Of a stretch of 35,386 nt of DNA, positions 14,843 to 31,956 are shown piece after piece. Under the pieces are notes generated by a model. The model was given only the letters and a program-made list of their open reading frames with translations. It had not been told where the DNA came from and ran no database searches. A program made the translations under genes and the position numbers. Positions within the stretch are counted from its first letter, which is position 1. Every line of letters starts with the position of its first letter. The DNA is from Gammaproteobacteria bacterium (lineage in GTDB: Bacteria; Pseudomonadota; Gammaproteobacteria; Steroidobacterales; Steroidobacteraceae), in assembly GCA_009692285.1 (NCBI GenBank), contig SHZO01000006.1:1-35386 (forward strand), in the 5' to 3' direction.

Positions 14843-16273
14843 TCACCATTTCAGTAGTCGCTCACCGAGAATCTTCCCAAATGTGAGTGCTGGTGTGAGG
14901 GAAAGCCCGCCTACAAACGCATTGCCTGATGTGCGTCCGAATCCCAGAATTTCTCCTGCGGCATACAAATTAATAATTGGCTTGCCGTTTTTTCCGATTA
15001 CCCGTAATTTCTTGTCAACCTTCAGTCCTGCTGGGCTTAAAACGGTAATCCCTTGTGCTTTTATTGCATAGAAGGGTGGTTTTTCAATACGACGAATTAA
15101 AAAATCTTTGTTGTATTTTCTATCAATTCCAGAATCTACTGCTGAGTTGTACTGTTTTATGCTATTACACAAGGTGGCGATTGGCACGCTGAGTTTGCGA
15201 GCAAGCTCAGAAATTGTCTTAGCTTTGATAAATGCAGGGTGGCGTCCAAATTCTGCACGGTACACTGATCTAGAATCGAGTGTCATAGTCCCAGAATTTT
15301 GTAAAATACCTTCGTCAAAGATAATATTCATGGCCGTACCTGGTTGGCGCAGCAATGATCGTTCACGATAATCAATGCTTGGGTGATCTTCTTGCATAAA
15401 ACGCCGACCTTTAGTATCGACAAAGATCTCCCAAATTTTTCGTGTACCTGGTGAGAGAGTTAAAAATATACCACTGCATGGATCTTTTGGATTATCCAAG
15501 ACGCCTGCGAAAGTACACAAAAATTTATCACTACCGTCCAAGGGTGCACCAATTGCTCGGGCAGCAATGAGACCATCACCCTGTGAATAGGGATTCACGT
15601 AAGAGCACAGTGGCACCTTTGGAGTCAGTTGAGTCCACAGCGAAGGGTTGGCTGCATAGCCGCCGGAGGCCAAGACTACGTTTTTACCTAAGAATTCTTG
15701 GCTACCGCTGGGAGTATTTGCTCGAACTCCCGTTACTACACCACGTTCATCTGTGATGATTTTTTGCATACGATGCTGCAGAAGCAGATGAATTTTCCCC
15801 TGAGCAATTAGACGGTCATGGATGGGTTTAAGAGTTTCAAGAATTGATATTGCTTTATTATTTCCCCATAAGTAACGGCGAGTCGAATAGGCTTCGTGGG
15901 CCTCGCCAGCCACAGGTGTACCTACGGCTGGTTGGAATCCAAGATCCATTAGCCAATCTATGGTATTTGCTGCGTTATCAACCATCAGCCGAAGTACGAT
16001 AGGATCAATCTGCCCATGCGCAATTCTTTGTGCATCACGGTAGTGATCGTTGGGACTGTCTTGAATACCCTGTGATTTCTGCAAACGCGTACCCGCAGCG
16101 CTGATTTGGCCTGAGGACCAATAGAGGGTGCCTCCAACGCGATAATCGGCCTCGAGTTGCAGAACTTTAGCGCCGCGTTCGGCCGCTCGTATTGCCAAGG
16201 GGAGTCCTGCGCTACCGGCGCCAATGACAATTATATCCCAAAGTGGCGGGGGATTAACTTTAGCGCGAGCCAT
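14843..16273 (-). CDS. FAD-dependent oxidoreductase, fumarate reductase/3-ketosteroid dehydrogenase-like
   Basis: DIIVIGAGSAGLPLAIRAAERGAKVLQLEADYRVGGTLYWSSGQ (FAD site) and GKPIINLYAAGEILGFGRTSGNAFVGGLSLTPALTFGKILGE (C-terminal FAD-domain signature). Confidence 0.88.
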   Translation of the reverse strand: MARAKVNPPPLWDIIVIGAGSAGLPLAIRAAERGAKVLQLEADYRVGGTLYWSSGQISAAGTRLQKSQGIQDSPNDHYRDAQRIAHGQIDPIVLRLMVDNAANTIDWLMDLGFQPAVGTPVAGEAHEAYSTRRYLWGNNKAISILETLKPIHDRLIAQGKIHLLLQHRMQKIITDERGVVTGVRANTPSGSQEFLGKNVVLASGGYAANPSLWTQLTPKVPLCSYVNPYSQGDGLIAARAIGAPLDGSDKFLCTFAGVLDNPKDPCSGIFLTLSPGTRKIWEIFVDTKGRRFMQEDHPSIDYRERSLLRQPGTAMNIIFDEGILQNSGTMTLDSRSVYRAEFGRHPAFIKAKTISELARKLSVPIATLCNSIKQYNSAVDSGIDRKYNKDFLIRRIEKPPFYAIKAQGITVLSPAGLKVDKKLRVIGKNGKPIINLYAAGEILGFGRTSGNAFVGGLSLTPALTFGKILGERLLKW

Positions 16274-16344: not shown

Positions 16345-17082
16345 ATGAATATTTCCCCTGAAGAATGGCAGTTACGTTTTGATCTGGCCGCAGCCTATCG
16401 TTTAGTCGCTTTGCACGGTTGGAGTGATCTAGTATTTACGCATATCACGGCGCGTATTCCAGGGCGTGAACATCATTTTCTAATAAATCCGTATGGTTTA
16501 TTGTTTGAGGAAGTTACAGCTTCTTCACTCATAAAAGTTGATGAGCACTGCAATAAATTACAAGATTCGCCTTATCCTGTAAATCCTGCTGGATTTGTTA
16601 TTCATAGCGCAATACATGAGGTCCGCGAGGATGCTAACTGCGTGCTGCATACTCATACTCGCGCAGGTGTTGCAGTCTCAGCTCAGGCGCAAGGACTGCT
16701 CCCTATTTCCCAGCAGAGTACTTTTGTACTGGCTTCATTGGGTTACCACAACTACGAAGGTGTTGCATTTCGATCAGAAGAAAAACCGCGTCTACAAGCC
16801 GATTTAGGAAATTACTCTTTTCTGTGTCTACGTAATCATGGTTTGCTTACTGTAGGCGCAACTATTGCTGATGCTTTTTTAGCAATGTATATCTTTGAGA
16901 GCGCTTGCCAAATCCAAATAGCAGCCCAAGCGGGTGGTAGTGCATTGCTATCAGTAGATCCAGCTATTATCGCGGGCACCGCTGAGGCAATGCGCGTTCA
17001 AACTGGCGGCTTAGGAGGAGGGTTTGTGTGGCCGAGCTTGTTGCGTAAACTTCAACGTACTGATTCAAACTATCGCAGTTAG
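16345..17082 (+). CDS. Class II aldolase/adducin-domain protein
   Basis: GWSDLVFTHITARIPGREHHFLINPYGLLFEEVTASSLIKVD; metal-binding HTHTRAG; LRNHGLLTVG. Confidence 0.88.
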   Translation: MNISPEEWQLRFDLAAAYRLVALHGWSDLVFTHITARIPGREHHFLINPYGLLFEEVTASSLIKVDEHCNKLQDSPYPVNPAGFVIHSAIHEVREDANCVLHTHTRAGVAVSAQAQGLLPISQQSTFVLASLGYHNYEGVAFRSEEKPRLQADLGNYSFLCLRNHGLLTVGATIADAFLAMYIFESACQIQIAAQAGGSALLSVDPAIIAGTAEAMRVQTGGLGGGFVWPSLLRKLQRTDSNYRS

Positions 17083-17129
17083 GGTTGTCCGACGCACTGA
17101 AATTTAATACTACTTAGGATCCTTTAGTG

Positions 17130-18302
17130 ATGAAACGACGTTCAGTTTTATGTTCAGGGGCCTCTTTAATCGCTGCTGGCGCAACTATTTTAAATAGCCT
17201 GCCCAGCATTGCTGCGACGCTGTCTGATAAATCGGTACGCTTCATGCGAGCTTATGAAGTGGGTGAGCTCGGCAGGAAAAATTATGGGCTACGGATTGTG
17301 AGGCGGCCTGTTCCGGATGTTGCTGCGGGTCAAGTATTGCTGCGTGTGCATGCCACCGGGTTAAACGCGCGTGATCTAGCTTTACTACGAGGCCTTCGTA
17401 TTTACGGCGGTGTACACGACCCGACCCGTATACCTTTAGACGATAATGCCTGTGAGGTGTTGGCACTTGGAGCGGGCGTCACAGATTTCAAAATTGGAGA
17501 CCGGGTGCTGTGTACGCATTTTCCACTGTGGCTAGACGGTCCTTGGGATGATGTGACTATGTCAGGCGTAGACTTTGGTGTAAATACCAATGGATTTCTT
17601 GCTGAACAAGTGGCAGTTCCTGCGCAAGGTTTAGTGCGAATTCCTAGAGAAATATCCTACCAAGCCGCTGCTACATTTCCAAATGCAGGATTAACTGCTT
17701 GGCATGCTGTAATGGTGGCAGCAAATCTTCAAGCTGGTGAAACCATGGTTACTTTAGGTACCGGAGGCGTGTCGGTATTTGGGATGCAGTGGGCTAAGTT
17801 ACGTGGTGCCAAAGTTGCAATCACATCTTCACAGGATACAAAGCTCGTGCGAATGCGTGAGCTCGGTGCCGAAATTACTATTAACTATCGCAATAATCCG
17901 GACTGGCACCATGAGTTACTCGAGTTAACACAAGGGCGTGGCGCTGATGTCGTTCTGAATACCGTAGGCATTGCTGAGCTAGAGCGTTGCTTGCTTGCTT
18001 GCAATTCTAATGGAAGAGTCATGGTGATAGGTGCTAACTCAGTTACTCGCGGTAAGGGTACTGCTACAACGGCAGAGTTCACGGGGTTGAAAGTTTTTCC
18101 GCGAGCAATGATCATGCGCGGATTAACTATTCGCGGCATTATTGTTGGGAGTCGCCAAATGTTAGCCGATGCTTTACAAGCTGCAGCATCTGCAGGACTA
18201 CTTCCTGTAATTGACCGCGTTTTTTCTTTTGAGAATGCGCGAGAAGCCATTACGTACATGGAAAGTGGAGAGAAAATTGGTAAGATTGTTATTAGTATCT
18301 AG
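17130..18302 (+). CDS. Zinc-independent MDR/quinone oxidoreductase-like dehydrogenase with Tat-like leader
   Basis: Leader MKRRSVLCSGASLIAAGATILNSLPSIAA; MDR fold VLLRVHATGLNARDLALLRG, GAGVTDFKIGDRVLCT, FPNAGLTAWHAVMVAANLQAGETMVTLGTGGVSVFGMQWAKLRGAKVAITSS. Confidence 0.85.
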   Translation: MKRRSVLCSGASLIAAGATILNSLPSIAATLSDKSVRFMRAYEVGELGRKNYGLRIVRRPVPDVAAGQVLLRVHATGLNARDLALLRGLRIYGGVHDPTRIPLDDNACEVLALGAGVTDFKIGDRVLCTHFPLWLDGPWDDVTMSGVDFGVNTNGFLAEQVAVPAQGLVRIPREISYQAAATFPNAGLTAWHAVMVAANLQAGETMVTLGTGGVSVFGMQWAKLRGAKVAITSSQDTKLVRMRELGAEITINYRNNPDWHHELLELTQGRGADVVLNTVGIAELERCLLACNSNGRVMVIGANSVTRGKGTATTAEFTGLKVFPRAMIMRGLTIRGIIVGSRQMLADALQAAASAGLLPVIDRVFSFENAREAITYMESGEKIGKIVISI

Positions 18303-18335: not shown

Positions 18336-19172
18336 ATGAAATTCTGGCGTACTCCCTTGGGAGTGCAGCGGCACTATATCAACGGACGCTATGGGCAGAT
18401 ACATTATCGTATTGCAGCCCCCGCACACCCCTCTGCTGTGCCGTTATTATGTTTCCATTTAAGCCCTAATTCAGGCCGCGTGTATGCGCAATTTATCGCG
18501 CAGATAGGCCACGATCGTATCGCAATCGCCCCAGATACACCTGGTTTTGGGCTGTCTGATGCACCAACCACTGCGCCTGAAATCAGTGACTATGCCGCAT
18601 GCATGGGAGAATTTGCGGATGCACATGGGTTTACGACATTTGATGTAATGGGCTACCATACAGGCTCAAAGATTGCATTAGCACTCGCACAACAAAGACC
18701 TGCTCAGTTACGGCGTTTAGTATTGGTGTCTGCGCCAATTTATACTGAGGCAGAATTAGTGCAGCAATACAAAAGTATGGGTACGTCCGAGGTAGAAAAA
18801 TTGAGCGAAGATGGCTCGCATTTGCTCAGGCTTTGGCAAGATCATTGGCGTTGGAAGGACTCTGCAGCCCCAGCTAGTTTTATTCAGCGTGAAGTAGCTG
18901 AGGGTCTCGTGGCAGGTGAGCAAGCTTGGTGGGGGCATCAAGCTGCATTTAAAGTACAGCACGCCCTCGAGTTACCGAAAGTTGAGCAGCCAATTTTATT
19001 ACTTTGCCCTAAGGATGATCTTTGGGAAGCAACTCAACGGGCACGGCCTTTTCTACGCAATGGAAAATTTGTGGAGCTGCCGAATTATGCTCATGGTTTT
19101 TTAGACGTGCATACTACTGAGGTAGTGGACATAGTCCGCCATTTTCTGGATGCATCGGAGCAGACGTTTTGA
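18336..19172 (+). CDS. Alpha/beta-hydrolase-fold protein, atypical GYHTG nucleophile elbow
   Basis: CFHLSPNSG, IAPDTPGFGLSDAP, DVMGYHTGSKIALALAQQRP, EDGSHLLRLW, ILLLCPKDDLW, NYAHGFLD. Confidence 0.85.
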   Translation: MKFWRTPLGVQRHYINGRYGQIHYRIAAPAHPSAVPLLCFHLSPNSGRVYAQFIAQIGHDRIAIAPDTPGFGLSDAPTTAPEISDYAACMGEFADAHGFTTFDVMGYHTGSKIALALAQQRPAQLRRLVLVSAPIYTEAELVQQYKSMGTSEVEKLSEDGSHLLRLWQDHWRWKDSAAPASFIQREVAEGLVAGEQAWWGHQAAFKVQHALELPKVEQPILLLCPKDDLWEATQRARPFLRNGKFVELPNYAHGFLDVHTTEVVDIVRHFLDASEQTF

Positions 19173-19978
19173 TCCGTCGTGCCTTTCATGAAGGTGCTTA
19201 TGGACCATTGCATTACCGTATAGTGGTTCCTACGGCCACTGAATTAAGACCGCCATTATTTATGTTTCATATGAGTCCTAATTCTGGCTGTATTTTTGAA
19301 GCTGCTTTGCGTGAGATGGGTAAAGACAGGATTGTTGTTGCGCCAGATACACCGGGCTTTGGTGAATCTGAGGCGCCTTTATTTCCCATTGAAATCGAAG
19401 ACTTTGCTAATACAATGTCGCATCTGATAGATTTTTTAGCGGAAAAGCTTAATTTTTCACAAGTGGATATTATGGGTTATCACACTGGTGCGATGACGTG
19501 TATCGCACTAGCTTTGCAGCGTCCAATCTTAGTCAGACGTATTGTACAAATTTCGTCACCTGTTTTCACGGATGAAGAATTGGTGAGTTTCCGTTCTGAA
19601 TATCAACCGAAAGAAATCTGTGAAAATGGCGCTCATCTACGCGACGCATGGTTAAATTTGCTTCGTTTTTATAATGACGATGTACCTAGGAGCGTGTTAG
19701 CGCGCAACTTTGCTTCTAGTCTACGCGGTGGACCTATAGCTCATTGGGGACATCGTGCAGCATTTAATTATGATCTAAAAATTTATTTGCCTAAAGTAAC
19801 ACAACCATTATTAATCGTTAACCCTAATGATGATCTGGCGGAGCAATCGCCACGCGCCTTGGCGTTAGTGCGGCACGCCAAGATAGTCAATATCGAAAAT
19901 CATGCACATGGTTTTATTGATGTTATGCCGGTGAAATTTGGAGAGATTCTTCGTAACTTTCTCGATTCTGTACCGTAG
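19169..19978 (+). CDS. Alpha/beta-hydrolase-fold protein, paralogue of the upstream gene, GYHTG elbow (TTG start overlapping upstream stop)
   Basis: MFHMSPNSG, VAPDTPGFGESEAP, DIMGYHTGAMTCIALALQRP, ENGAHLRDAW, LLIVNPNDDLAE, NHAHGFID; starts within the upstream stop region (TTGA). Confidence 0.83.
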   Translation: MIRRAFHEGAYGPLHYRIVVPTATELRPPLFMFHMSPNSGCIFEAALREMGKDRIVVAPDTPGFGESEAPLFPIEIEDFANTMSHLIDFLAEKLNFSQVDIMGYHTGAMTCIALALQRPILVRRIVQISSPVFTDEELVSFRSEYQPKEICENGAHLRDAWLNLLRFYNDDVPRSVLARNFASSLRGGPIAHWGHRAAFNYDLKIYLPKVTQPLLIVNPNDDLAEQSPRALALVRHAKIVNIENHAHGFIDVMPVKFGEILRNFLDSVP

Positions 19979-21239
19979 CATCGAACGCTACGCTGATTCG
20001 TGTGCCTGTTGCTTCAAAAGGCAATGTGCGATGCCAAAGATGTGAGGGAAATAAAACTAGGCGGCCCGGTGCCGGTGTCACACAGCGGGTTACAGTCATT
20101 AACGGCATTGTGCTTCGCGCAGGGGGGCGACCAAATTCAAGTGCACCTGCAAAGATATCTTTCGATTGCATTTCATCAGGCAACAAAATATAGAATACGC
20201 CACTCATTTCGCTACGTGGGTGCATATGCGTAATTTGTTGGCCACCACTCTCTATTAGTGTGCCCCACAAACGTAAGTGCCATTGTTGTAATGGCTGAAG
20301 TGGGCACTCGTTGTTAAGCTGTCCCAAGATAAGCGCCTCGAGTGCGAGCAGCGCCGGATGGTATGATGGATCCAACTCTCCTGTCTGAAAACCACCACGG
20401 GTGGCTTTGCTCAAAGGGCTGGCGAGACAGGATGGATCTGCGCGTAGCAGTTCGGCAATTTCTTCGGCTAAAGCTACGGGAAGACCATCATGACCCAGAT
20501 CATGTAGAGTGATCATGCGATCTAGGTCAACTATCTCTTTCGCTTCTTCTTGACGACCGCAAATTTCTAATGCGATTGCGCAGGCTGCTAATACTTGTCG
20601 ATCCCCCGGGTGGTTTGCTAAAAAATTATCTGCTATCTCGCAAGCCTCTGTGCAACGTTCTAATAAGGTTAATAGGTCTACTAATTCTGCTGTAGCCCGA
20701 GCATTATTTGGATTGATATCCCTTGCTTCGGTAAGCGCCACTAGGGCCTTTTCAGGTTCACATAGAGCCCGCTCACAAAGACTCAAGTTTACCCAAGCCA
20801 TTTCATCCACTCGACCGGTAGCCGTTATTGCGCGCAGTGTCGCGCGTGCAGCAGTAAAATCATCTAATGCATACAAAAGCGCGCCTTGGGTGGCTTGAAG
20901 GAGGGGGTGTTCGCTTAGGATGGCTGGTAGGTTTCTCAAGCTCTGTAGCGCCTCGAAACCACGACCAGCATCTAAAAGGGCATGGGCACGGTTGCTAATT
21001 AAATCTATATCTCGGGGCGCTATGGCTAAGGCTCGCTCGTATAGGCTCAACGCAGAGACAATGTGCCCTCGCATATGGAGTACAGCCCCAAGATTCATGA
21101 GCGGCTCGAGCGCCATCGGGGTAGCCTCTAGGGCAGCTCGAAGAGCGTATTCGGCCTGCAGCAAACGTCCTGCAGATAAATGTGCTTGGGTGCTGAGGTC
21201 AAGGCTCGGAACAGTGGGATTTAGCATTTCGCTTGGCAT
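19923..21239 (-). CDS. TPR-repeat protein with C-terminal putative 2OG-Fe(II) oxygenase domain (PF13759-like)
   Basis: TPR repeats (LEPLMNLGAVLHMRGHIVSALSLYERALAIAPRDIDLISNRAHALLDAGR); C-terminal ITHMHPRSEMSGVFYILLP...GRLVLFPSHLWHRTLPFEATGTRISVAFDA. Start at internal Met (21239), since the longer ORF overlaps rmuC. Confidence 0.8.
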   Translation of the reverse strand: MPSEMLNPTVPSLDLSTQAHLSAGRLLQAEYALRAALEATPMALEPLMNLGAVLHMRGHIVSALSLYERALAIAPRDIDLISNRAHALLDAGRGFEALQSLRNLPAILSEHPLLQATQGALLYALDDFTAARATLRAITATGRVDEMAWVNLSLCERALCEPEKALVALTEARDINPNNARATAELVDLLTLLERCTEACEIADNFLANHPGDRQVLAACAIALEICGRQEEAKEIVDLDRMITLHDLGHDGLPVALAEEIAELLRADPSCLASPLSKATRGGFQTGELDPSYHPALLALEALILGQLNNECPLQPLQQWHLRLWGTLIESGGQQITHMHPRSEMSGVFYILLPDEMQSKDIFAGALEFGRPPARSTMPLMTVTRCVTPAPGRLVLFPSHLWHRTLPFEATGTRISVAFDATVQNRESYEESLQISPA

Positions 21240-21265
21240 GATGGAAACAGAATTTGGAGAGTATT

Positions 21266-22468
21266 GTGATTGAACTATTTTACCTGATGCTATTTGTAGG
21301 TGGCGCATTAGTTGGGGGTACTTTGGGGCATTTTTTCGCACGACAACGATTACATACCCAAGAACAGCTTACCCATGCCTTTCGATCAATTTCTGCTGAT
21401 GCTCTGCAAAGAAATAATCAGCAGTTTCTGGATTTGGCCCGCACCCAACTAGAGGGATTCCAAACTGCAGCTAAAACTGATCTTGAAGTACGTCAGAAAG
21501 AGATCGGCGAAACCTTAAATCCTATCCGTGAGTCTATGGCGAAAGTTGATATTCAAATTCAAGAGCTTGAAAAAGTGCGTGCTGGCGCTTATCAGTCTTT
21601 ACAGCAACAACTAGAGCAGCTCATTAAAGAACAAAACCTATTGCGTGGCGAAACTAGTAATTTAGTGAGCGCACTGAGACAACCAACAGTACGTGGACGT
21701 TGGGGTGAAATTCAATTACGCCGGGTAGTTGAACTAGCCGGAATGCTAAATCACTGCGATTTCATTGAGCAGCATTCAGTTCAAACAGAAGAGGGTCGTT
21801 TGCGTCCTGATCTAATCGTGAAGCTACCTGGCGGCCGTAATGTAATTATTGACTCTAAAGTTCCTCTGGCTGCCTATTTGGCTGCGCTTGAAGCGCGCGA
21901 TGATGTAACACGTGGAGCTCGTTTACAGGAGCATGCGCGTGCAGTACGAACCCATATTCAACAACTTTCTCGCAAAGGGTATGCAGAAGAGGTGCGAAAG
22001 AGCGCTGAGTTCGTCGTGCTATTTTTACCGGGCGAGGTATTCTTTAGTGCTGCTTTAGAGCAAGACCCGTCATTGATAGAAGCTGGAGTAGAGCAGGGCG
22101 TGATGATTGCAACACCCACTTCACTTATTGCGTTGCTGCGCGCAGTCGCTTTTGGCTGGCGCCAAGAGCAGATTGCACGTAATGCGGAAGATATTAGTGC
22201 CCTTGGAAAAGAAATATTTGATCGACTTGCTACTATGGCGGAGCATTGGAGCAAAGTTGGTTATAGTTTGAAGAGCGCAGTAGACGGTTATAATAAAGCT
22301 ACAAGTTCATTAGAGAGCCGTGTGATGGTAACTGCGCGGCGTTTTCGAGAGCTGGATGCCGGACTTGATCCAGAGAAGCTGGCTGAGCTCGAATCTGTTG
22401 ATGTGATGCCGAGGCAGTTGCAACATGAAGATTTGGCGCCAAATTCTTTGTCTCTACATAAAACGTAA
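21266..22468 (+). CDS. rmuC: DNA recombination protein RmuC
   Basis: TM N-terminus, coiled coil, LRQPTVRGRWGEIQLRRVVELAGMLNHCDFIEQ, RPDLIVKLPGGRNVIIDSKVPL, GVMIATPTSLIALLRAVAFGWRQEQIARNAEDIS. GTG at 21266 preferred over TTG at 21254. Confidence 0.95.
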   Translation: MIELFYLMLFVGGALVGGTLGHFFARQRLHTQEQLTHAFRSISADALQRNNQQFLDLARTQLEGFQTAAKTDLEVRQKEIGETLNPIRESMAKVDIQIQELEKVRAGAYQSLQQQLEQLIKEQNLLRGETSNLVSALRQPTVRGRWGEIQLRRVVELAGMLNHCDFIEQHSVQTEEGRLRPDLIVKLPGGRNVIIDSKVPLAAYLAALEARDDVTRGARLQEHARAVRTHIQQLSRKGYAEEVRKSAEFVVLFLPGEVFFSAALEQDPSLIEAGVEQGVMIATPTSLIALLRAVAFGWRQEQIARNAEDISALGKEIFDRLATMAEHWSKVGYSLKSAVDGYNKATSSLESRVMVTARRFRELDAGLDPEKLAELESVDVMPRQLQHEDLAPNSLSLHKT

Positions 22469-22485
22469 AATATTAGGCTAAATTT

Positions 22486-22896
22486 GTTTTTGCGTGGATC
22501 TGAAGCAGTTCTGACAGCGCCGGCGTTATCTACAGATATCACTTGCATGTCACCAAATTCCTAGGGATAAATACCAGCTTATTAGCTTAAGAGTTGCGGG
22601 CCTTTCTGCCCTACGGCAGAGGCTGGCTCGCGAAAATCTAGAAAATAATCTTTATCTCGTTGATGTAGGGTCATAACTTCCTCTGCCGGATAGGTTGCCG
22701 TTTCAGGGTAGGTTGCTGGTAGCGTAAAGGCCTAGACCACGCCAGCATCCGTGGCATTGTAACCAGAGCGAAGGATTTGTTCTGCTGTTTCTGCCCCGTA
22801 TTGATCGGGCGCAGCAGTGGCTTCTGAGCTTGCATATACTGATGCTAAGTCTAAAATTACGAAGATTAAGGTAAGAAGTCTAATAATGATTTTCAT
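22486..22896 (-). pseudogene. Gamma-glutamyltransferase relic: N- and C-terminal remnants with internal deletion and in-frame stops
   Basis: Signal-peptide-like start then ATAAPDQYGAETAEQILRSGYNATDAGVV*AFTLPATYPETATYPAEEVMTLHQRDKDYFLDFREPASAVGQ (GGT N-terminal pattern), then EFGDMQVISVDNAGAVRTASDPRKN (GGT C-terminal pattern), same frame; stops at 22732-22734, 22582-22584, 22561-22563. Confidence 0.72.
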
Positions 22897-22920
22897 TGTG
22901 CTCAATTTTGGCATATTTCA

Positions 22921-24840
22921 TTGCTTCTTTCGTACATGATTCAATACATGAACATTAATACTCATTCCGAACTTGTTATGCCTGAATTCACTTTTAAGGC
23001 CTTGCTCACTGGGGTGCTACTCGGTGTTATTTTTGGGTCAGCAAATGCATATTTAGGCTTGCGCGTTGGTATGACAATATCCGCCTCTATTCCTGCTGCA
23101 GTCATGACCGTTGCAGTTTTCAAATTTTTAAGTCGGCCTAGTACCATTTTGGAGGCAAACCTCTCTCAGACTGTTGCCTCGGCTTCTACAGCATTGGCGA
23201 CCGGAACTCTTTTTACCATCCCTGCTTTATTTCTTTGGGGAGTAGTACCTCCTTATATTCAGATAGTCAGTTTATGCTTTTTAGGAGGGTTGCTTGGCCT
23301 TTGTGCCATGATTCCATTACGAAGATTACTGATTGTAAGTGCAGCAGCTGAATTGCCGTATCCTGAAGGGCGTGCTTGTGCAGAAGTCTTACAAGCAGCC
23401 GATCAAAAGTCAGCCTCTAGTCACTGGATATTTTGGGGAATGTTGCTCGGAGCTATCCTCAAGGTCAGTATTTCCCTACTATTTTTATGGCCTGATGAAC
23501 TGCAGATCAGTCTACCTGTTTTGCCTAAGGCTGAGTTGGCTCTAGAATTAGCTCCAGCATTAATTGGTGTAGGATATATCTTAGGCTATCGACAAGCTGC
23601 AGTATGTGTAGCCGGGGCCCTACTATCAGCAGTAGTTTTAACGCCTTTGATTTCTATTATGGGGGCAGAATTACTTGCTCCACATTTACCTGAAACTGTC
23701 AAACTTATTAGTGACATGGATGCTGGAGAAATTTGGTCACGATATGTCCGCTATATTGGTGCGGGTGCGGTGGCTACAGCTGGTATTCTGACTGTGATTG
23801 GTACTACACCTTTAATATGGGAATCTTTTAGATCCGTTGCGAAGGGTATTCGTAGAGTTAGTAACGACATCACTCGGGATGATGTAGATAGCGCGCGTCG
23901 TGATCGAGACTTACCCAAGTCTTTTGTATTTGGCGGCATTGCATTTGTTATTCTAATTGCTGGCTTAGTACCAGGCGTCTTTGCGGGTGAAATGAATATA
24001 GTGCAGCGCGGAGTTCTAGCCGTAGGGGTTGGGTTTTTTGGTTTGTTATTTGTAAGTGTTGCAGCGCGTATTGTTGGTATTGTCGGTGTGTCATCACAGC
24101 CTACTTCCGGGATTGCCTTGGTGACATTGCTTGGCACCGCTTCTGTTTTTGCTGCTGCCGGTTGGGTCACTCCGGATTCACGCGCTGCAGTACTTACTGT
24201 TGGGACTATCGTGGCTATTGCAGCAAGCAAAGCGGGGGATATTGCGCAGGATTTGAAAACTGGGTTTTTACTTGGTGCGACACCCGCGCACCAACAACTT
24301 GGGCAGCTCATTGGGGCAGCTGCAGCTTGTTGGGCAGTTGCAGCTACTGTGTTATTACTTGGTAATGTGTATGGTTTTGGTTCACATGAAATACCTGCAC
24401 CCCAAGCCACTTTAATGAAAACCATTGTGGAGGGGGTGCTATCCGGTGATTTACCTTGGGATTTAGTAGCCACGGGAGCAGGTTTGGCAATGACGGCTAT
24501 GCTCTGTGGTGTTTCAGGTTTAGCTTTTGCGATTGGAGTCTATTTGCCCCTAGGTACTATGACTCCTTTATTCTTTGGGGGGTGCGTCCGCGCATGGATA
24601 GAGTGGCGCACTGGAGACAAAGAAAAAATCATTCAGCATAGTAACTCTGGTGTATTAGCTGCTGCAGGGTTAATTGCAGGTGAAGGTTTGGCAGGCGTTT
24701 TGATCGCAGGCTTAGTTACGGCAGAGATTGCTCCACGTGCCCTTACGCCCATTTTTGGCGCAGGTTTGGGTCAGTGTGCCGTAAGTGCATGTGTTCTAGG
24801 TGTTGGCCTGTTTCTTATGCGTGCAGGACGAAGCTTATAG
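22921..24840 (+). CDS. OPT-family oligopeptide transporter (true start may be an internal Met, e.g. 22936, 22948 or 22978)
   Basis: FKALLTGVLLGVIFGSANAYLGLRVGMTISASIPAAVMTVAVFKFL, ELPYPEGRACAEVLQA, GDIAQDLKTGFLLGATPAHQQLGQLIGAA. Confidence 0.9.
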   Translation: MLLSYMIQYMNINTHSELVMPEFTFKALLTGVLLGVIFGSANAYLGLRVGMTISASIPAAVMTVAVFKFLSRPSTILEANLSQTVASASTALATGTLFTIPALFLWGVVPPYIQIVSLCFLGGLLGLCAMIPLRRLLIVSAAAELPYPEGRACAEVLQAADQKSASSHWIFWGMLLGAILKVSISLLFLWPDELQISLPVLPKAELALELAPALIGVGYILGYRQAAVCVAGALLSAVVLTPLISIMGAELLAPHLPETVKLISDMDAGEIWSRYVRYIGAGAVATAGILTVIGTTPLIWESFRSVAKGIRRVSNDITRDDVDSARRDRDLPKSFVFGGIAFVILIAGLVPGVFAGEMNIVQRGVLAVGVGFFGLLFVSVAARIVGIVGVSSQPTSGIALVTLLGTASVFAAAGWVTPDSRAAVLTVGTIVAIAASKAGDIAQDLKTGFLLGATPAHQQLGQLIGAAAACWAVAATVLLLGNVYGFGSHEIPAPQATLMKTIVEGVLSGDLPWDLVATGAGLAMTAMLCGVSGLAFAIGVYLPLGTMTPLFFGGCVRAWIEWRTGDKEKIIQHSNSGVLAAAGLIAGEGLAGVLIAGLVTAEIAPRALTPIFGAGLGQCAVSACVLGVGLFLMRAGRSL

Positions 24841-24933
24841 AGACTTCATGTGGCACAGGTTGTATGCAGGCGGAAAATAACTTACTAACTTATCCATCCA
24901 CTCAGGAATATTTCAAGAGCTATTCTGTAATTT

Positions 24934-25617
24934 TTAACCCTTTCGTAAATCTGTTATTTTCAGTGCGAGTGCTTGCACTTCAGTTTCGTGCTCTGTTTCA
25001 CGCCATGTTTCTTTTAGTGCTGCGTTGTACCAAGATTTCATGGCAGGTAATCCGAGCATATGCGCAACATATTTCTGGGCAATATTTGACAGTGGTAAAC
25101 CATAGGTTTGAAATCTAAAGATTACCGGTGCAAAGAAAGCATCGACAGCAGTGAAGGCACTTCCTGCGAGGTATGGTCCACCAAAAAGAGTGTGACCTTC
25201 GTGCCAAAGGTTTTCTATACGTTCTATATCCCTGTGCAGGGCTTTAGGAGTGTTTCGCAGTTGTACCCGTAGACCGCAACTCATGGGGCAGTGATTGCGT
25301 AATACTGAAAAACCAGAGTGCATCTCGGCGCTCGCACAGCGAGCCCAGGCACGAGCTTCGAGGGTAGCCGGCCAGACTAAAGGGTGGCTTTCAGCTAGAT
25401 ATTCTGTGATCGCTAAAGAGTCCCATAGGCGTAACTGGCCATCGTGTAAGCATGGCACCTTTCCGCTGGGTGAGAAGTTAACAAAGGTGCTCGTGCTACC
25501 AACACCGTCAAACTGTTCCAGATGTTCCTCGAAAGGTATCTCAAGCGTTTGCATTAGTACCCACACTCGTAAAGACCAAGAAGAGTAGTTCTTATTTGCA
25601 ATCCATAATGAGTACAT
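24934..25617 (-). CDS. Glutathione S-transferase family protein
   Basis: MYSLWIANKNYSSWSLRVWVLMQTLEIPFEEH... NFSPSGKVPCLHDGQLRLWDSLAITEYLAE (N-domain incl. cis-Pro and DS motif); YLAGSAFTAVDAFFAPVIFRF (C-domain). Confidence 0.9.
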   Translation of the reverse strand: MYSLWIANKNYSSWSLRVWVLMQTLEIPFEEHLEQFDGVGSTSTFVNFSPSGKVPCLHDGQLRLWDSLAITEYLAESHPLVWPATLEARAWARCASAEMHSGFSVLRNHCPMSCGLRVQLRNTPKALHRDIERIENLWHEGHTLFGGPYLAGSAFTAVDAFFAPVIFRFQTYGLPLSNIAQKYVAHMLGLPAMKSWYNAALKETWRETEHETEVQALALKITDLRKG

Positions 25618-25629
25618 AGCTACACTTTA

Positions 25630-26418
25630 TTATTTAATAGGCTTACGAAACTTTAACGTAAAGCGATCGCTGTACCCTTTAAGAGATTCGACTTGGCTAT
25701 CAAAGCGCAAATCATCATCGGGACGATAATGCAAATTACTGTAGCCGGAGAACTCAAATCCCGCATCGAGCAACTCTTTAATTACTACAATAGGATCCAT
25801 GCGTCTCCAAATTGCAATATTTGTTGGTTCATTATGACGACGAGTATGATCTATAATTCCGTATATCCCACCAGGCTTTAATGCATTGAATACTGCTTTA
25901 TTCACCAGTGTGCGTGATGCTGGTGTCATGTTGTGATAATTACGAAACGTTAAAACCATATCGATGTTCTTGACGTTAAAATCTACGACGTCAATTTGAA
26001 ATGAGCCAATTTGTCCTGAGGGACTCATTGATCCTTTATCATTAATAATTTCTACTTTATCTAGTGCCCATTCTTTAAGCCTGGGCTCCAAGCGACTTGC
26101 ATTCATAGCTAAATAGAGCTTGCCTTTCTCTGCGAGCGTTAAACCTAAAACTTTGGTATACCAGCCTGCGCCCGGCATAATTTCTATCACGTTCATATTG
26201 GGCTGCAAACCGAAGAACTCTAGCGTCTGAATAGGCTTTCGCTCTTTAGCATCTCGAGAGCGTTCTTCCGGAGTTCTGATCTCACTTGCCAAAGATTTTT
26301 CTATTAGCTGTGCAATTTCGCTCTTTGGGGCAGGCGGTGGCATCTGCGCGAAACTGACAGCGCTGAGTAGAGATAGCGTAATTAGTTTGATCAGGCGCAT
26401 TAGGTTTTGGTTTAGCAT
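25630..26418 (-). CDS. Class I SAM-methyltransferase-like protein with signal peptide (COG4798-like)
   Basis: N-terminal LMRLIKLITLSLLSAVSFAQ; NMNVIEIMPGAGWYTKVLGLTLAEKGKLYL (motif I-like); NIDMVLTFRNYHNM; ALKPGGIYGIIDH. Confidence 0.75.
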   Translation of the reverse strand: MLNQNLMRLIKLITLSLLSAVSFAQMPPPAPKSEIAQLIEKSLASEIRTPEERSRDAKERKPIQTLEFFGLQPNMNVIEIMPGAGWYTKVLGLTLAEKGKLYLAMNASRLEPRLKEWALDKVEIINDKGSMSPSGQIGSFQIDVVDFNVKNIDMVLTFRNYHNMTPASRTLVNKAVFNALKPGGIYGIIDHTRRHNEPTNIAIWRRMDPIVVIKELLDAGFEFSGYSNLHYRPDDDLRFDSQVESLKGYSDRFTLKFRKPIK

Positions 26419-26514
26419 GGTGAAATCGCTCTAGTTGTGTTTAAGACTGGATATAGTGTCATCTATTTTTAAAGGGTACAGTTTATTACTTTAAAGGCAA
26501 GGGGGACTAAGCAG

Positions 26515-27324
26515 ATGCAGTCTTTGACTATATTAATTACTGGCGCATCTTCGGGTATCGGCGCTGAATTGGCGCGTCAGTACGCTGCACGCGGCGCTTA
26601 TGTGGCCTTAGTGGCTAGGAGAGTGGATTTACTGGAAACTTTAGCTGCGGAACTACGTGCGCACGGTGGGCAAGTCAGTATCCACGCGGGCGATGTCACG
26701 CGGTCTGGGGATATTGCTGCGGTGGTTAGCGCCCTACAGGACATCGGACGGTCGTTAGATATAGTAATCGCCAATGCCGGCTTTGGGGTAGCCGGATCCC
26801 TACAGCGTTTGAGTATTCAAGACTATCAACGCCAATTTGAGACCAATGTATTTGGTGTGCTCAGAACAGTCTATGAGACATTAGGTGCTTTGCGCGCCTC
26901 TCGAGGTCGTTTAGTTTTGATGGGTAGCGTTGCGGGTCATTTGGCTACGCCCGGCGCTTCGGCTTATGCCGCGAGTAAATTTGCGGTACGCGCATTATCG
27001 GAGTCTTTGCGTGGTGACCTGCGCGCTGAGGGCATTGGCATTACTTTAATCTCGCCCGGTTTTGTAGACTCAGATATTCGGCGTATTGATAATCAAGGCG
27101 TTTTACTCGCTAGCGTTCCAGATCCGGTGCCCTCTTGGTTGCGCGTGACAACCCCTCGCGCAGTACGCGCTATGATCAAAGGAATTACACAAGAAAAATC
27201 AGAGATTGTGATCACTGGGCATGGTAAATTGATCGTATTTTTTGCGCGATATTTTCCGCGTACTGTGCGTGCTTTAGTATTGCGTAGTTACCATGCTCGC
27301 CCAGAGCCAACAGCAGAAATTTAA
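26515..27324 (+). CDS. Short-chain dehydrogenase/reductase (SDR)
   Basis: TILITGASSGIGAELARQYAARGAYVALVARR, IVIANAGFG, SVAGHLATPGASAYAASKFAVRALSESLR (TGxxxGIG, NAG, YxxxK). Confidence 0.93.
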   Translation: MQSLTILITGASSGIGAELARQYAARGAYVALVARRVDLLETLAAELRAHGGQVSIHAGDVTRSGDIAAVVSALQDIGRSLDIVIANAGFGVAGSLQRLSIQDYQRQFETNVFGVLRTVYETLGALRASRGRLVLMGSVAGHLATPGASAYAASKFAVRALSESLRGDLRAEGIGITLISPGFVDSDIRRIDNQGVLLASVPDPVPSWLRVTTPRAVRAMIKGITQEKSEIVITGHGKLIVFFARYFPRTVRALVLRSYHARPEPTAEI

Positions 27325-27338
27325 GTAGGCTACGTATC

Positions 27339-27956
27339 ATGACTTTCCACAGTTTATTTCCTACCTTACTCTATTCAGCGTCGCTGCAAAGCGGTGACGT
27401 AGCAGGCTTGAATAAAAAATTATTACGTGAATGTATCCAGTTGCGCAGCGATGATGTAGCTGGGCGGCGTTGGTCTGCTAAACATTATTTAGGCGGCTAC
27501 ACATCCTATGGTTCGCAATGCCAATTGCAACGTATTTCTCCCACGTTCGCGTTATTAGAGAAGCGTTTGCAACGTCATGTACGTGCATTTGCGCGCACTT
27601 TGGAATTTGATCTTGTAGGGCGAGAATTAGTAATGACCGATTGTTGGGTAAACATCATGCCGCGTGGTGTTGTGCATAGCATGCACCTCCATCCACTATC
27701 AACATTCAGTGGCACGTACTATGTGCGCACGCCCTCTGGTGTACCTGGACTTAAACTTGAAGACCCGCGACTTGATCGATTTATGGCTGCGCCACCGAAG
27801 CGTGTACAGGCACCAGCGAGCGCTCGTCCTTGGTTTATTTTGCCTGTACGTGCTGGACAAGTAGCTCTATTTGAGAGTTGGCTACGTCACGAAGTCCCAC
27901 CCAATCCAGTTGTTGCTGAGCGTGTGAGCATTTCTTTTAACTTCAGTTGGTTTTGA
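27339..27956 (+). CDS. Putative 2OG-Fe(II) oxygenase (TIGR02466/PF13759-like)
   Basis: MTFHSLFPTLLYSASL...; HSMHLHPLSTFSGTYYVRTPSGVPGLKLEDPR...GQVALFESWLRHEVPPNPVVAERVSISFNFSW. Confidence 0.8.
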   Translation: MTFHSLFPTLLYSASLQSGDVAGLNKKLLRECIQLRSDDVAGRRWSAKHYLGGYTSYGSQCQLQRISPTFALLEKRLQRHVRAFARTLEFDLVGRELVMTDCWVNIMPRGVVHSMHLHPLSTFSGTYYVRTPSGVPGLKLEDPRLDRFMAAPPKRVQAPASARPWFILPVRAGQVALFESWLRHEVPPNPVVAERVSISFNFSWF

Positions 27957-29551
27957 TCTACTGGTAAAGTTGTGTGAGGTATTTTGCTGGCAGCGAGCTT
28001 CTCTTCAAAGGTGTAGCTTAGCATTGCAGAGATAGCAGTCGGCCAAAGACCCCCAATTTTTAAGAGTTCTGTAACTTTTTTATCGACAGAGCATGCATCA
28101 ATTGCCGCATCGCCTAATATAATGGCGCTCGAGCGCCGGTCAAACCATGGGTAGAATAATTGCATATCACGAACGATGGCCCAAGCAGTGACTAAATGAC
28201 TACCATCCCAGCGGGGTTCGATCGAAGGTGCGTAATTTTCTTGCCACAGTTTTCGAGTAGCATTATCAAGTTTCGGGACACCGGCTGACCAAAGATATTG
28301 TGCGCGTCCATAAGATAACTGCGCAAGTTCAAGACCTACCATAGCGCCCATTTCAAAACCAAATATTTCAAATTCAGTTATTTTAAGGCTATCAATCAGG
28401 GGGATGATTTGAGCAGCTAGAGACTCAATAGTTAAATGTTTATTTGTTATCAAGTGTCGCGACTCACCAAAGCCTGGCAAATCTATGGCAATTATCGGCC
28501 TTTGACCAACTAAGGGCGTCAACCAGTCGTGTAAACTTGCTGAAGAACCTGATGCCCCGTGTATAGCTAGGATAACGCGACCAGGACCGCTGTAATTCAC
28601 ACGAGCATGTAATTGGCCGTTGGGTACGGCAAGAAATTTGCGCTCAAGTTTATTTTTCACCTCAGAACGTAAGCTAGATTGATTGCTAATTTTGACTGAT
28701 GCGGTCTGAGTCAAATAATGTTGTAACAAATATTCTTCATTCACGCGCTGGCGCTCTTCTACTGAGGGGCCGGCATGTAGAATCGTGAAGTTTTTTGGTA
28801 GGCCGCGAGTAATGAGTTCATCAACTTCAGATAAATCTGGTTTGCCTTCCCAGCGCATTAAAGTGGCGGGTACTTTTACCCGACTAATCAAATCATGTTT
28901 GGCGGTATAGAACGCGGGGCGGTACGCTGCTGCATATCGATCTCCAACACGCAGATAGTCTAGCATTTTCGCGTGTATTTCCTGCGGCGAGGGCACGTTG
29001 ATTGACAAACGATGTGCCGCGTCAGTTTTTTGCCAAGGCGAGAATAAAGATAGTGAACGTACCATGTCCCAATGCGTCAGCAGATGGCCGCCATCGCGGC
29101 GCGGTGTGACATTTGGAAAATAATCTGCAAGCATTAAATCAAGATCTGCATCTTCTTTGTGTCCTGCCGTATCGAGCATGCACAACGCAACTCGTTCAGG
29201 ATAGGCATGTGCAAAGAGCTGTGCAATTTCTGCCCCTGTTGCATTACCATAGATCGCAATACTTTGTAGTCCTAGTTCATCGAGAAAATCTTTTAAGATC
29301 GGTAAATAATCAACTAATTCAGGTTGAGTTGGATTGCCTGGGAGCGGATCTGAGAGGCCATAACCTGGGGTATCAAGCGCTATGACTGTAAATTTGCGCG
29401 AGAGGCGTTCAGCCATTGGCAAAGAAAAAGTGCTTGATTGCGGTGAGGGGTGTAGCAGTAGAACTGGCGGACCGTGCCCTCCACATCGGTAGTGAAGCTG
29501 TTGCCCGTTGGGCAGCGTGACGTAATGTTGTTGGAGGGTAGTTGGGGACAT
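27887..29551 (-). CDS. Tandem fusion of two alpha/beta-hydrolase-fold domains, both with non-canonical nucleophile elbows
   Basis: N-half: LLLHPSPQSS, IALDTPGYGLSDPL, AIYGNATGAEIAQLFAHAYPERV, RDGGHLLTHW. C-half: ILAIHGASGSSASL, IAIDLPGFGES, EIFGFEMGAMVGLELAQL, WDGSHLVTAW. Confidence 0.82.
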   Translation of the reverse strand: MSPTTLQQHYVTLPNGQQLHYRCGGHGPPVLLLHPSPQSSTFSLPMAERLSRKFTVIALDTPGYGLSDPLPGNPTQPELVDYLPILKDFLDELGLQSIAIYGNATGAEIAQLFAHAYPERVALCMLDTAGHKEDADLDLMLADYFPNVTPRRDGGHLLTHWDMVRSLSLFSPWQKTDAAHRLSINVPSPQEIHAKMLDYLRVGDRYAAAYRPAFYTAKHDLISRVKVPATLMRWEGKPDLSEVDELITRGLPKNFTILHAGPSVEERQRVNEEYLLQHYLTQTASVKISNQSSLRSEVKNKLERKFLAVPNGQLHARVNYSGPGRVILAIHGASGSSASLHDWLTPLVGQRPIIAIDLPGFGESRHLITNKHLTIESLAAQIIPLIDSLKITEFEIFGFEMGAMVGLELAQLSYGRAQYLWSAGVPKLDNATRKLWQENYAPSIEPRWDGSHLVTAWAIVRDMQLFYPWFDRRSSAIILGDAAIDACSVDKKVTELLKIGGLWPTAISAMLSYTFEEKLAASKIPHTTLPVDQNQLKLKEMLTRSATTGLGGTS

Positions 29552-29691: not shown

Positions 29692-31956
29692 ATGATACAA
29701 ATTAAAAAATTAATGCTGTTTATTACTGCCTTAGCTACAACCACAGTTTTTGCTGCCGAACAGAAGACCGGTCTCGGCGGCCTTGAAGAAATTACAGTCA
29801 CCGCGCAACGTCGAGAACAAAGCTTGCAGGATGTGCCTATTGCAGTTACAGCCTTTACCGCTGAGCAACTCGCCCAGCGTCAAATATTTGATACTTATGA
29901 TTTGGTACGTAATATACCAAACCTTACTGGTAACGCTAACGTTGGTGTGGGGACATCAAGCTCGTTGTTTATCCGTGGTCTTGGTAATGGGGAGTCTATA
30001 GCGACGTTTGATTTGCCCGTCGGCACTTATGTCGATGATGTCTATATTTCTAGACAGAATCATAATAATTTTAGTCTCTTTGATGTTGATCGTATCGAGG
30101 TGCTACGGGGCCCACAAGGCACGCTTTTTGGTCGTAATACGACCGGCGGCGCTATCAATATCACCATGAAAAAACCTTCTGTTAAGGGCGGCGGTTACTT
30201 TGAGGCTGGTGCCGGTCGTTTTGGTCTAGTTACCATGCGAGGGTCGGTAGATTTACCTTTGAGTGATAACCTTCTCACTAAATTCTCAATATATAAAATT
30301 AAAGATGATGGTTACGCCACGCAGCTCTCTACGGGTATTAAATTTAATGATCGTGATGCTACCGGTGTTCGCGCTGACCTGCGTTTTTTGCCAAGCGATG
30401 TCTTAACTATTGATTTAGTCTCTGAATATGTCACAGACCAAGACACAAATTTTCTCAATTTGCTTGATGTCAATGGCAATCGCGTTATAAACAATAAACT
30501 GCAGCAGTACACATTAGTGGGTACTTTTGTCGGTGCTAAAGCAAGTTTTGAGCCAGGTAACGTAGCTAAGACGCATGCAAATACGCTTAATGTAAATTGG
30601 GATTTAAGCGAAACACTCAGCTTAAGCTCTATCACCGGCTACCGTCGTACAGCGCATAATTTTTTGGTGGATTCGGGAGGTGATTTACCCCGCGTAAGTA
30701 CTACGCGTGGTTTTACGCCGCTCGATAATGCGGGGGATCATAAGCAGGTTTCACAAGAGTTCAAGCTTAACGGTAGCGCTGCGGGTGACGCTGTGACATG
30801 GGTCGCTGGTGTGTATTACATGAAAGAGGACAACGTCACTGACTTCGCCAACGCAAGTACAAGTACCGTCACGGGAGTATTTTCTGTGACTGCTGATCGC
30901 ACTATGAAAAATGGCTTGAAGGCTTATGCCGTGTATGCCCAAGCAGATTACAAATTGACAGATCGTTTGACGACCACCGTTGGCGTGCGTTACACCGACG
31001 AGAAGAAAAATTTTGCAATTGAACGTAACCCCGGTGCGCAGGGTGTGTTGCTTTCAACCGCATTAATTTCTGCCGCGGGCATTCCGCTAGAGCTGCAGCA
31101 AAAATTGGTTACGCCTCGTTTTGCGCTGCAGTACGACATCAGTAATGATGTCATGGTGTTTGCTTCGGCGACACGTGGTTTTAAATCAGGTGGCTGGCCT
31201 GCGCGTGCTACGGCCAATAATGCCTTTATCCCGTTCCTACCAGAGAAAGTTTGGTCTTATGAAATTGGCACTCGTGCTGATTTGTTCGATAACCGGTTAC
31301 GTTTGAACCTCACGGCCTTTCATGCCATTACTGATGACGTGCAGATTCCTGCCCGTATTGATGTTAACGGTTTGCAGATCTCCACGACCACAAACCCTGC
31401 TGATTTGCGCAACTCTGGCCTTGAGCTAGATGCGACTTGGATTCCTATTGAGGGCTTGAACATTACTGCAGGCGTGGGCATGCAAGACGCTAAGTACATC
31501 AATATCAGTAAGCGGGTGCTGGACCAGGCCGCCGCTTGTAAAAGCTCCCCTACGGCGCTCTATCAAGGCGTCGCTGCTTGCGCAGCCAACTTTGTGGATA
31601 TGTTCGGCAATATTGCTGTGCCTGTCCGCTCGCCGGATTACACCCTCAGCCTCTCGGCTAGCTACAAACTGACCTTGGGCAATGTGGTTCTGACGCCAAA
31701 CGTGGGCTTGAACAAGAGCGACGCCTATGCTATCGGCACTACCGGTACACCTCAGAGCACAAATGGTACTTGGTCTCCCACTCAGAGCTACATCAATGGC
31801 GGCGTGATGCTGGAGTTGGCAGATGCTCCCGGATTTTCACTCACAGTGGATTGCCGAAATTGCCAGGATAAGGCTTATCCGACCTCAGCCCTCGGAGTGT
31901 TCCAATTTCTGGATCGTCCAGGTAGCTGGAGTGCTCGTATGCGCTATCGCTTCTAA
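29692..31956 (+). CDS. TonB-dependent receptor
   Basis: Signal peptide; GLGGLEEITVTAQRREQSLQDVPIAVTAFTAEQL (TonB box/plug), RIEVLRGPQGTLFGRNTTGGAINI, beta-barrel ending ...PGSWSARMRYRF*. Confidence 0.96.
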   Translation: MIQIKKLMLFITALATTTVFAAEQKTGLGGLEEITVTAQRREQSLQDVPIAVTAFTAEQLAQRQIFDTYDLVRNIPNLTGNANVGVGTSSSLFIRGLGNGESIATFDLPVGTYVDDVYISRQNHNNFSLFDVDRIEVLRGPQGTLFGRNTTGGAINITMKKPSVKGGGYFEAGAGRFGLVTMRGSVDLPLSDNLLTKFSIYKIKDDGYATQLSTGIKFNDRDATGVRADLRFLPSDVLTIDLVSEYVTDQDTNFLNLLDVNGNRVINNKLQQYTLVGTFVGAKASFEPGNVAKTHANTLNVNWDLSETLSLSSITGYRRTAHNFLVDSGGDLPRVSTTRGFTPLDNAGDHKQVSQEFKLNGSAAGDAVTWVAGVYYMKEDNVTDFANASTSTVTGVFSVTADRTMKNGLKAYAVYAQADYKLTDRLTTTVGVRYTDEKKNFAIERNPGAQGVLLSTALISAAGIPLELQQKLVTPRFALQYDISNDVMVFASATRGFKSGGWPARATANNAFIPFLPEKVWSYEIGTRADLFDNRLRLNLTAFHAITDDVQIPARIDVNGLQISTTTNPADLRNSGLELDATWIPIEGLNITAGVGMQDAKYINISKRVLDQAAACKSSPTALYQGVAACAANFVDMFGNIAVPVRSPDYTLSLSASYKLTLGNVVLTPNVGLNKSDAYAIGTTGTPQSTNGTWSPTQSYINGGVMLELADAPGFSLTVDCRNCQDKAYPTSALGVFQFLDRPGSWSARMRYRF

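Follow-up and report, generated by a model that had tools for sequence, protein, structure and literature searches.

Among the enzymes with an alpha/beta-hydrolase fold, PcaD uses a serine residue as its nucleophile, and the haloalkane dehalogenases use an aspartate residue. The superfamily is large, and both its classification and the prediction of function lean on the presence of Ser, Asp, or Cys at the nucleophile elbow; a classification from 2024 distinguishes members with one of these three residues, or with no nucleophile at all, at this position (PMC11878206). In the HOD-type enzymes, a His-Asp dyad is essential, the triad histidine serves as the base, and the elbow may be occupied by an alanine (PMC10548524). 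Here we analyze a stretch of 35,386 nucleotides (referred to as the window) from a member of the Steroidobacteraceae (assembly GCA_009692285.1); it represents contig 70 of a 1.39-Mb draft genome that is 83% complete and consists of 96 contigs. Three open reading frames (ORFs) of the window encode four domains with this fold: two consecutive proteins with the elbow GYHTG (proteins 1 and 2) and a tandem protein whose two domains carry the elbows GNATG and GFEMG. The residues found at the elbow are thus His, His, Ala, and Glu, and not the Ser, Asp, or Cys of canonical hydrolases. Both GYHTG proteins belong to a large and uncharacterised GxHTG (His-elbow) family of alpha/beta-hydrolase-fold proteins, and we give an even chance to the reading that they are catabolic enzymes in which the elbow His would act as an acid/base.

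Conservation of the Elbow Histidine Among Homologous Proteins

The conserved His-elbow family is real. For the main survey, we aligned the retrieved loci to a profile and obtained 175 domains with at least 200 matched residues; His occupies the elbow in 146 of them, a fraction that describes the family and not the superfamily as a whole. GHHTG (54 domains), GYHTG (36), GFHTG (32), GTHTG (7), and GSHTG (4) are the most common His elbows, and the elbow His is encoded by CAC in 118 and by CAT in 28 of the 146 domains. Another set of 40 hits, drawn blind to the elbow from a match list covering the order of the window genome, yielded His in 36 cases, Gln in three, and Gly in one, and Ser, Asp, or Cys in none. 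The substitution that the first-pass annotation had noticed in the window is conserved, with no reversion to Ser, Asp, or Cys in close homologues. The three Gln elbows read GxQLG and were found in the family to which the window genome belongs; the variants GYQLG, GVQLG, and GHQLG are present in other genera of this family (L228, L234, and L235). In a tree of 151 domains from which the elbow columns had been removed, the His label requires seven changes compared to a mean of 31 after shuffling, on what is a quick tree with weakly supported deep branches (71).

These data bear directly on the possibility that the unusual elbows reflect decay or an assembly error. The source is an incomplete draft assembly of many contigs, but the same elbow is present in many independent genomes and is written with both His codons; for this reason, GYHTG is neither a product of decay nor an error. 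The GNATG elbow is conserved in five genomes as well. We assign a negligible probability to this explanation, which is refuted for both GYHTG and GNATG.

Protein 1 has matches in 39 of 40 genomes (its own included), some of which possess 20-32 of them, although the weak end of these matches may include ordinary hydrolases. The window genome itself contains nine matching places. Copy numbers are lower bounds, as scoring was restricted to a limited number of candidates in each genome. With a profile built from eight His-elbow proteins (E<1e-25), we found a match in 106 of the 196 genomes searched across the order and in four of the 299 genomes searched across the phylum (the window genome, which is included in both counts, and three others in the latter). 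A DNA-pattern survey of 399 genomes of the phylum returned mostly chance matches outside the family, with true members in G129, G239, G256, and G419. Carriers on annotated plasmid records are affiliated with Rhodococcus, Streptomyces, Shinella, Variovorax, Comamonas, Sphingobium/Sphingomonas, Antarctobacter, and Novosphingobium. The family spans the Gamma-, Beta-, and Alphaproteobacteria and the Actinomycetota, and it is strongly expanded in the order of the window genome. A scan of genome contigs with a single protein yielded one locus (L009), and no relative was detected in the viral contigs that we searched.

Fold, Position of the Elbow Residue, and Cap Motif

All four domains possess the alpha/beta-hydrolase fold. 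Each of the three ORFs scores above the gathering threshold of the Pfam families Abhydrolase_1 and Abhydrolase_6 (PF00561, PF12697), and two such stretches are present in the 554-aa ORF of the tandem protein. The AlphaFold2 model of protein 1, for which six sequences from the window and L009 were aligned, has a mean predicted local distance difference test (pLDDT) value of 79.8 and a predicted template modeling (pTM) score of 0.80; the blocks containing the elbow exceed a pLDDT of 90. Because strand 102-107 precedes helix 110-120 in this model, His108 is placed in the turn between beta5 and helix C, that is, at the nucleophile elbow. A Foldseek comparison of the model with the PDB retrieved hydrolase-fold structures with E-values down to 3e-16 and template modeling (TM) scores of about 0.63-0.76; the top match was 6i8w (E 3e-16, TM 0.74), followed by esterases, a chloroperoxidase, a dehalogenase, and epoxide hydrolases. 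The AlphaFold2 model of the tandem protein, built on a four-row alignment, is weak (pLDDT 55.9; 75-88 in the elbow blocks). It contains strands 98-103 and 394-399, followed by helices 105-116 and 401-412, and Ala104 and Glu400 fall at the two beta5-helix C turns. The location of H, A, and E at the nucleophile position, for which the first-pass annotation had proposed structure prediction as a check, is hence seen in the models of protein 1 and, with the weakness just noted, of the tandem protein.

Translation of the window bears out the sequences and coordinates given in that annotation for the four elbows, and the (D/N)GxHL...W motifs that it had described are present in all four domains at the positions compiled in Table 1. 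The elbow glycines, H41, S46, D67, and the residues G-x-H-L...W are all invariant in an alignment of the four domains, which do constitute one family; the homology of the tandem protein is seen both by profile and by cap motif. More than 100 homologues possess GxHTG followed by DGxHL...W at a near-constant spacing, and this recurrence argues that the pair of motifs is not due to chance. Both GYHTG proteins conform to the elbow pattern G-x-H-[TS]-G, and the tandem protein does not. Proteins 1 and 2 exhibit 43% identity to each other, and their ORFs share four bases (TTGA, positions 19169-19172). In the relatives L085, L086, L087, L088, and L089, the GYHTG pair is a single ORF; fused ORFs of this kind encode about 580-685 aa and are also represented in L009 (positions 7953-9725).

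Retention of the Elbow Histidine and Loss of the Triad Histidine

Of the 146 domains with a His elbow, just 53 possess a triad-type His, and 108 possess the His of the cap motif DGxHL, which is His162 in protein 1. Among the GYHTG domains, 28 of 36 have kept the triad-type His. By alignment, an acid after beta7 and a His after beta8 are present in both GYHTG proteins of the window; these residues are absent from the tandem protein and from most GFHTG, GSHTG, and GTHTG members. We assessed the variability of individual positions with 123 non-redundant domains (<80% identity over the compared columns) that have His or Ala as their elbow residue. Variation was lowest at a group of positions that includes G70, G72, S74, D67, G106, G110, H41, H108, H23, T109, and P44, where the rank of H108 is descriptive only, since the set had been chosen by the elbow residue. 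The oxyanion loop HxSPxS is retained alongside the elbow glycines.

We infer a direct role for the elbow His primarily because it is kept where the triad His has been lost, a pattern that is the opposite of that found in the HOD-type enzymes. With the triad-type His and Asp that the alignment assigns to them, the two GYHTG proteins appear to be good candidates for enzymes. They would be intracellular catabolic enzymes acting on products of the neighboring flavoprotein, dehydrogenase, and aldolase. The elbow His, situated beside the oxyanion loop HxSPxS, may serve as the principal acid/base toward the substrate or water, and no acyl-enzyme of the serine type would be formed. Where present (in GYHTG and in part of the GHHTG members), the second His and the Asp could function as a helper dyad. 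Candidate reactions would be carbon-carbon bond cleavage by a lyase (retro-aldol or retro-Claisen), the hydrolysis of a lactone or an enol, and isomerisation.

Alternatively, the elbow His could be a covalent nucleophile that attacks an acyl group or an activated carbon, and the resulting acyl-imidazole or N-alkyl intermediate would then be hydrolysed with the aid of the second His-Asp pair. The residue does reside at the nucleophile position, the elbow glycines and the HxSPxS loop are kept, and, by alignment, GYHTG members retain His253 and Asp227. However, the second His, which one would expect to aid turnover, is absent from over half of the family, and no precedent in this fold was found in the literature searched; we therefore consider covalent catalysis unlikely. 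A metal site, in which the elbow His, the second His, and an Asp or Glu hold a divalent metal that activates water, strikes us as very unlikely. By homology to the triad geometry, two His residues and an Asp would be near each other in GYHTG and in part of the GHHTG proteins, but the elbow His stays in many members from which the second His is missing, and we did not meet a metal-dependent member of this kind in the structures or the literature searched.

A Tandem Protein With Ala and Glu at Its Elbows

Judged by its placement on the tree, the tandem protein is a derived branch that belongs to a small Ala-elbow clade. Rows with the elbows GNATG, GAATG, and GTATG cluster there together with one ATHTS row (Shimodaira-Hasegawa-like approximate likelihood ratio test, 92), and the second domains mostly form a separate group on the 151-domain tree. 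We found orthologues with 57-58% identity in four genomes (G006, G012, G019, and G017). The domain 1 elbow is identical in all of them; the domain 2 elbow varies, with GFEMG in the window protein and GEELG, GRYSG, GEEFG, and GEDFG in the orthologues, a variability that fits relaxed constraint. In most two-domain relatives, domain 1 carries GFHTG, and domain 2 carries an elbow without His together with W(Y/F/H)GGHL. In the window protein, as well as in L040, L042, and L100, domain 2 stops shortly past the cap, and the usual acid and His are missing; L041 is longer.

The joint interpretation of the four domains in the first-pass annotation was not borne out as it stood, for the domains are not equivalent: by alignment, the GYHTG pair keeps the triad His and Asp, whereas the tandem protein is devoid of a recognisable triad. 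A single mechanism for all four domains is unlikely in view of the Ala elbow, the variable domain 2 elbow, and the lack of the C-terminal part of domain 2 that would contain the triad His. The tandem protein is probably not a His enzyme, and a role as a partner or binding protein, or as a His-independent variant, would be more likely.

The Ala elbow brings to mind the chemistry of the cofactor-free dioxygenases HOD/QDO, whose His-Asp dyad takes a proton from the substrate and whose elbow holds a dispensable residue or an Ala. The GNATG/GTATG clade parallels the Ser-to-Ala exchange in HOD-type enzymes (PMC10548524), and flavoenzymes are present in the catabolic setting of the window. Yet the pattern is reversed: the triad His is the base in HOD and the elbow varies, and the GNATG clade lacks a triad His. 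Dioxygenase-like chemistry accordingly seems quite improbable to us. The proteins could also be non-catalytic and bind ligands or exert regulatory functions, like other nucleophile-less proteins of this fold. The absence of the triad His from many members, the Ala and Glu elbows of the tandem protein, and its C-terminally shortened domain 2, which recurs in orthologues, can be read in this way. Against it, the elbow His and the cap residues have been kept across very divergent members and in many paralogues of a single genome, as would suit a chemical role. GYHTG members also retain, by alignment, a His and an Asp of the triad, and the genes are located in catabolic-looking clusters. In our judgment, a purely non-catalytic function of the family is improbable.

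Comparison With Curated Protein Families

None of the hydrolase-fold proteins reached a curated NCBIfam cut-off. Matches were distant (PcaD, dehalogenases, MenH, and others), with about 20-100 bits compared to cut-offs of 170-466. The PcaD model (TIGR02427) scored 42.6, 39.3, and 73.9 bits (cut-off 255.85), and the haloalkane dehalogenase models (PRK03204, PRK03592, and PRK00870) scored at most 65.6 bits (cut-offs 241-466), with an elbow that is devoid of Asp. We rejected an assignment to the curated enol-lactonase, dehalogenase, and other hydrolase families, as the scores were far below the cut-offs. A profile search of the PDB retrieved chloroperoxidase L and dehalogenases, none of them with more than 78 bits. 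Searches of the open-licence literature for the elbow and for replaced nucleophiles uncovered no paper that describes this family, and we met the His elbow neither in a curated family nor in a solved structure.

Genomic Neighborhood

About 20 kb of accessory, catabolic-looking genes (positions 12053-32126) are located between rpoC and putative rpsL-rpsG-fusA genes, which were named from their length and order and not by a search (Table 1). The interval between rpoC and rpsL also holds TPR-oxygenase and RmuC genes after the GYHTG pair. The IclR-EamA-PNPOx-flavoprotein-aldolase-GYHTG-pair set is present after rpoC, as a whole or in part, in several genomes of the genus, and large parts of it are found downstream of rpoC in L085, L086, L088, L089/L009, and L094. 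In L095, the IclR, PNPOx-like, and flavoprotein genes occur with a GYHTG gene at another site.

Table 1. Features of the window discussed in this study.
Feature	Position	Strand	Basis
IclR-family regulator, start of conserved catabolic-looking gene set	12053..12910	+	Pfam; same order in relatives
EamA-family transporter	13035..13820	+	Pfam; gene order in relatives
PNPOx-like flavoprotein domain	13865..14272	+	Pfam; gene order in relatives
SnoaL / limonene-epoxide-hydrolase-like protein	14310..14831	+	Pfam
FAD_binding_2 flavoprotein (flavocytochrome c / ketosteroid-dehydrogenase-like)	14843..16273	-	Pfam; NCBIfam; relatives
Class II aldolase/adducin family protein	16345..17082	+	above NCBIfam PRK07044 cut-off
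Medium-chain (zinc-type) alcohol dehydrogenase family protein	17127..18302	+	Pfam; relatives
His-elbow alpha/beta-hydrolase-fold protein 1, 278 aa	18336..19172	+	ORF; Pfam PF00561 6e-11; AlphaFold2 model
Nucleophile elbow GYHTG (G106-Y-H108-T-G110), protein 1	18651..18665	+	translation; conserved in homologues
Cap motif EDGSHLLRLW, protein 1, start of cap helix 161-171 in model	18807..18836	+	translation; AlphaFold2
Candidate triad acid Asp227 (CPKDDLW, after beta7), protein 1	19014..19016	+	alignment
Triad-type His253 (AHGFLD, after beta8), protein 1	19092..19094	+	alignment
His-elbow alpha/beta-hydrolase-fold protein 2, 269 aa, TTG start	19169..19978	+	ORF; Pfam PF00561 2e-10
Nucleophile elbow GYHTG, protein 2	19475..19489	+	translation
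Cap motif ENGAHLRDAW, protein 2	19622..19651	+	translation
Tandem two-domain alpha/beta-hydrolase-fold protein, 554 aa	27887..29551	-	ORF; two Abhydrolase stretches
Cap motif WDGSHLVTAW, tandem protein domain 2	28181..28210	-	translation
Elbow GFEMG (Glu), tandem protein domain 2	28346..28360	-	translation; orthologues
Cap motif RDGGHLLTHW, tandem protein domain 1	29069..29098	-	translation
Elbow GNATG (Ala), tandem protein domain 1	29234..29248	-	translation; orthologues
TonB-dependent receptor, divergent from tandem gene	29692..31956	+	Pfam; arrangement also in L098/G019

The SnoaL-like protein also scores above the cut-off of PF07858 (limonene-1,2-epoxide hydrolase) and could function as an epoxide hydrolase within the same pathway. 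Proteins resembling 2OG-Fe(II) oxygenases (PF13759) are encoded near both hydrolase loci (19923-21341 on the minus strand and 27339-27956 on the plus strand), one of them fused to TPR repeats, and this gammaproteobacterial draft genome also carries a gene for an OPT-family oligopeptide transporter, at 22921-24840 of the window.

A check for co-occurrence with TonB receptors had been suggested as well. In the window, a divergent TonB receptor gene lies next to the tandem gene. This arrangement is repeated in G019, where L098 contains the tandem gene, the divergent TonB receptor gene, an oxygenase gene, and a gene for a short-chain dehydrogenase/reductase; in G006 (L085) and G012 (L099), the tandem gene was not seen to have a TonB receptor gene as its neighbor, and the link is thus weak. 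As a general partner, the TonB receptor was rejected, since the window and L098 are the only places where it was seen to adjoin the tandem gene. Another TonB receptor gene is located near a GHHTG gene in L104.

Neighbors of the His-elbow genes in other carriers include genes for CoA transferase, HMG-CoA lyase, LeuC/LeuD-like hydratases, isochorismatase, polysaccharide deacetylases, amidohydrolase, acyl-CoA dehydrogenase, Asp/Glu racemase, luciferase-like monooxygenase, and DUF1838. On the plasmids of Sphingobium TomTYG65 and Sphingomonas JE1 (L080, L137), a single-domain GSHTG gene and a tandem gene with an ATHTS elbow are part of one cluster, which also comprises LeuC/LeuD-like hydratase, HMG-CoA lyase, CoA transferase, isochorismatase, and polysaccharide deacetylase genes. 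DUF1838 (PF08894) genes are found near GxHTG genes, and one adjoins the GHHTG gene of Novosphingobium P6W (L081, 8860-10891); its product is possibly a functional partner. Searches on DUF1838 and on the gene cluster gave no result. These neighborhoods suit catabolism, and no single pathway can be named from them.

Discussion

Several points weigh against acid/base catalysis by the elbow His. The sequences of the main survey had been picked by their similarity to His-elbow queries, the cap in the model of protein 1 (blocks 151-190) has low confidence (pLDDT of about 50), and the functions of the neighboring genes are diverse, with no common substrate apparent. Moreover, the many members without a triad His could instead be binding proteins.

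Somewhat short of an even chance, in our estimation, is the broader proposal that the elbow His is the key catalytic residue of the family, either as an acid/base or as a nucleophile, that the triad His and acid were thereby freed to vary, and that this elbow chemistry, a fourth one next to those of Ser, Asp, and Cys, was expanded to a dozen or more copies in single genomes as a catabolic toolkit. If the elbow His is catalytic, nature would have provided this well-understood fold with an alternative active site. As it stands, a widespread His-elbow family falls outside the Ser/Asp/Cys scheme and is hidden under the names "alpha/beta hydrolase" or "hypothetical protein" in annotated plasmid records. 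Its genomic context points to the degradation of environmental compounds.

With the alpha/beta-hydrolases that possess a cap (PF00561/PF12697), the His-elbow proteins share the core fold, the elbow glycines, the oxyanion loop, and the cap between beta6 and beta7, and, by alignment, the GYHTG members also possess the acid that follows beta7 and the His that follows beta8. They differ by their elbow, which is His (Ala or Gln in sub-branches), by the DGxHL...W motif of the cap, and by the frequent absence of the triad His. PcaD and the haloalkane dehalogenases (TIGR02427; PRK03204, PRK03592) are among the nearest curated profiles, with scores of tens of bits. The methylketone synthase MKS1 from tomato has the alpha/beta-hydrolase fold without the canonical triad and employs a His as the base (PMC10548524); this is a retained His helped by a Thr, and no elbow His is described. 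The cofactor-free dioxygenases HOD/QDO have the same fold, and some of them carry an Ala at the elbow (PMC10548524), as does the GNATG clade; they depend, however, on the His-Asp dyad of the triad, whereas in the His-elbow family it is the elbow His that is conserved.

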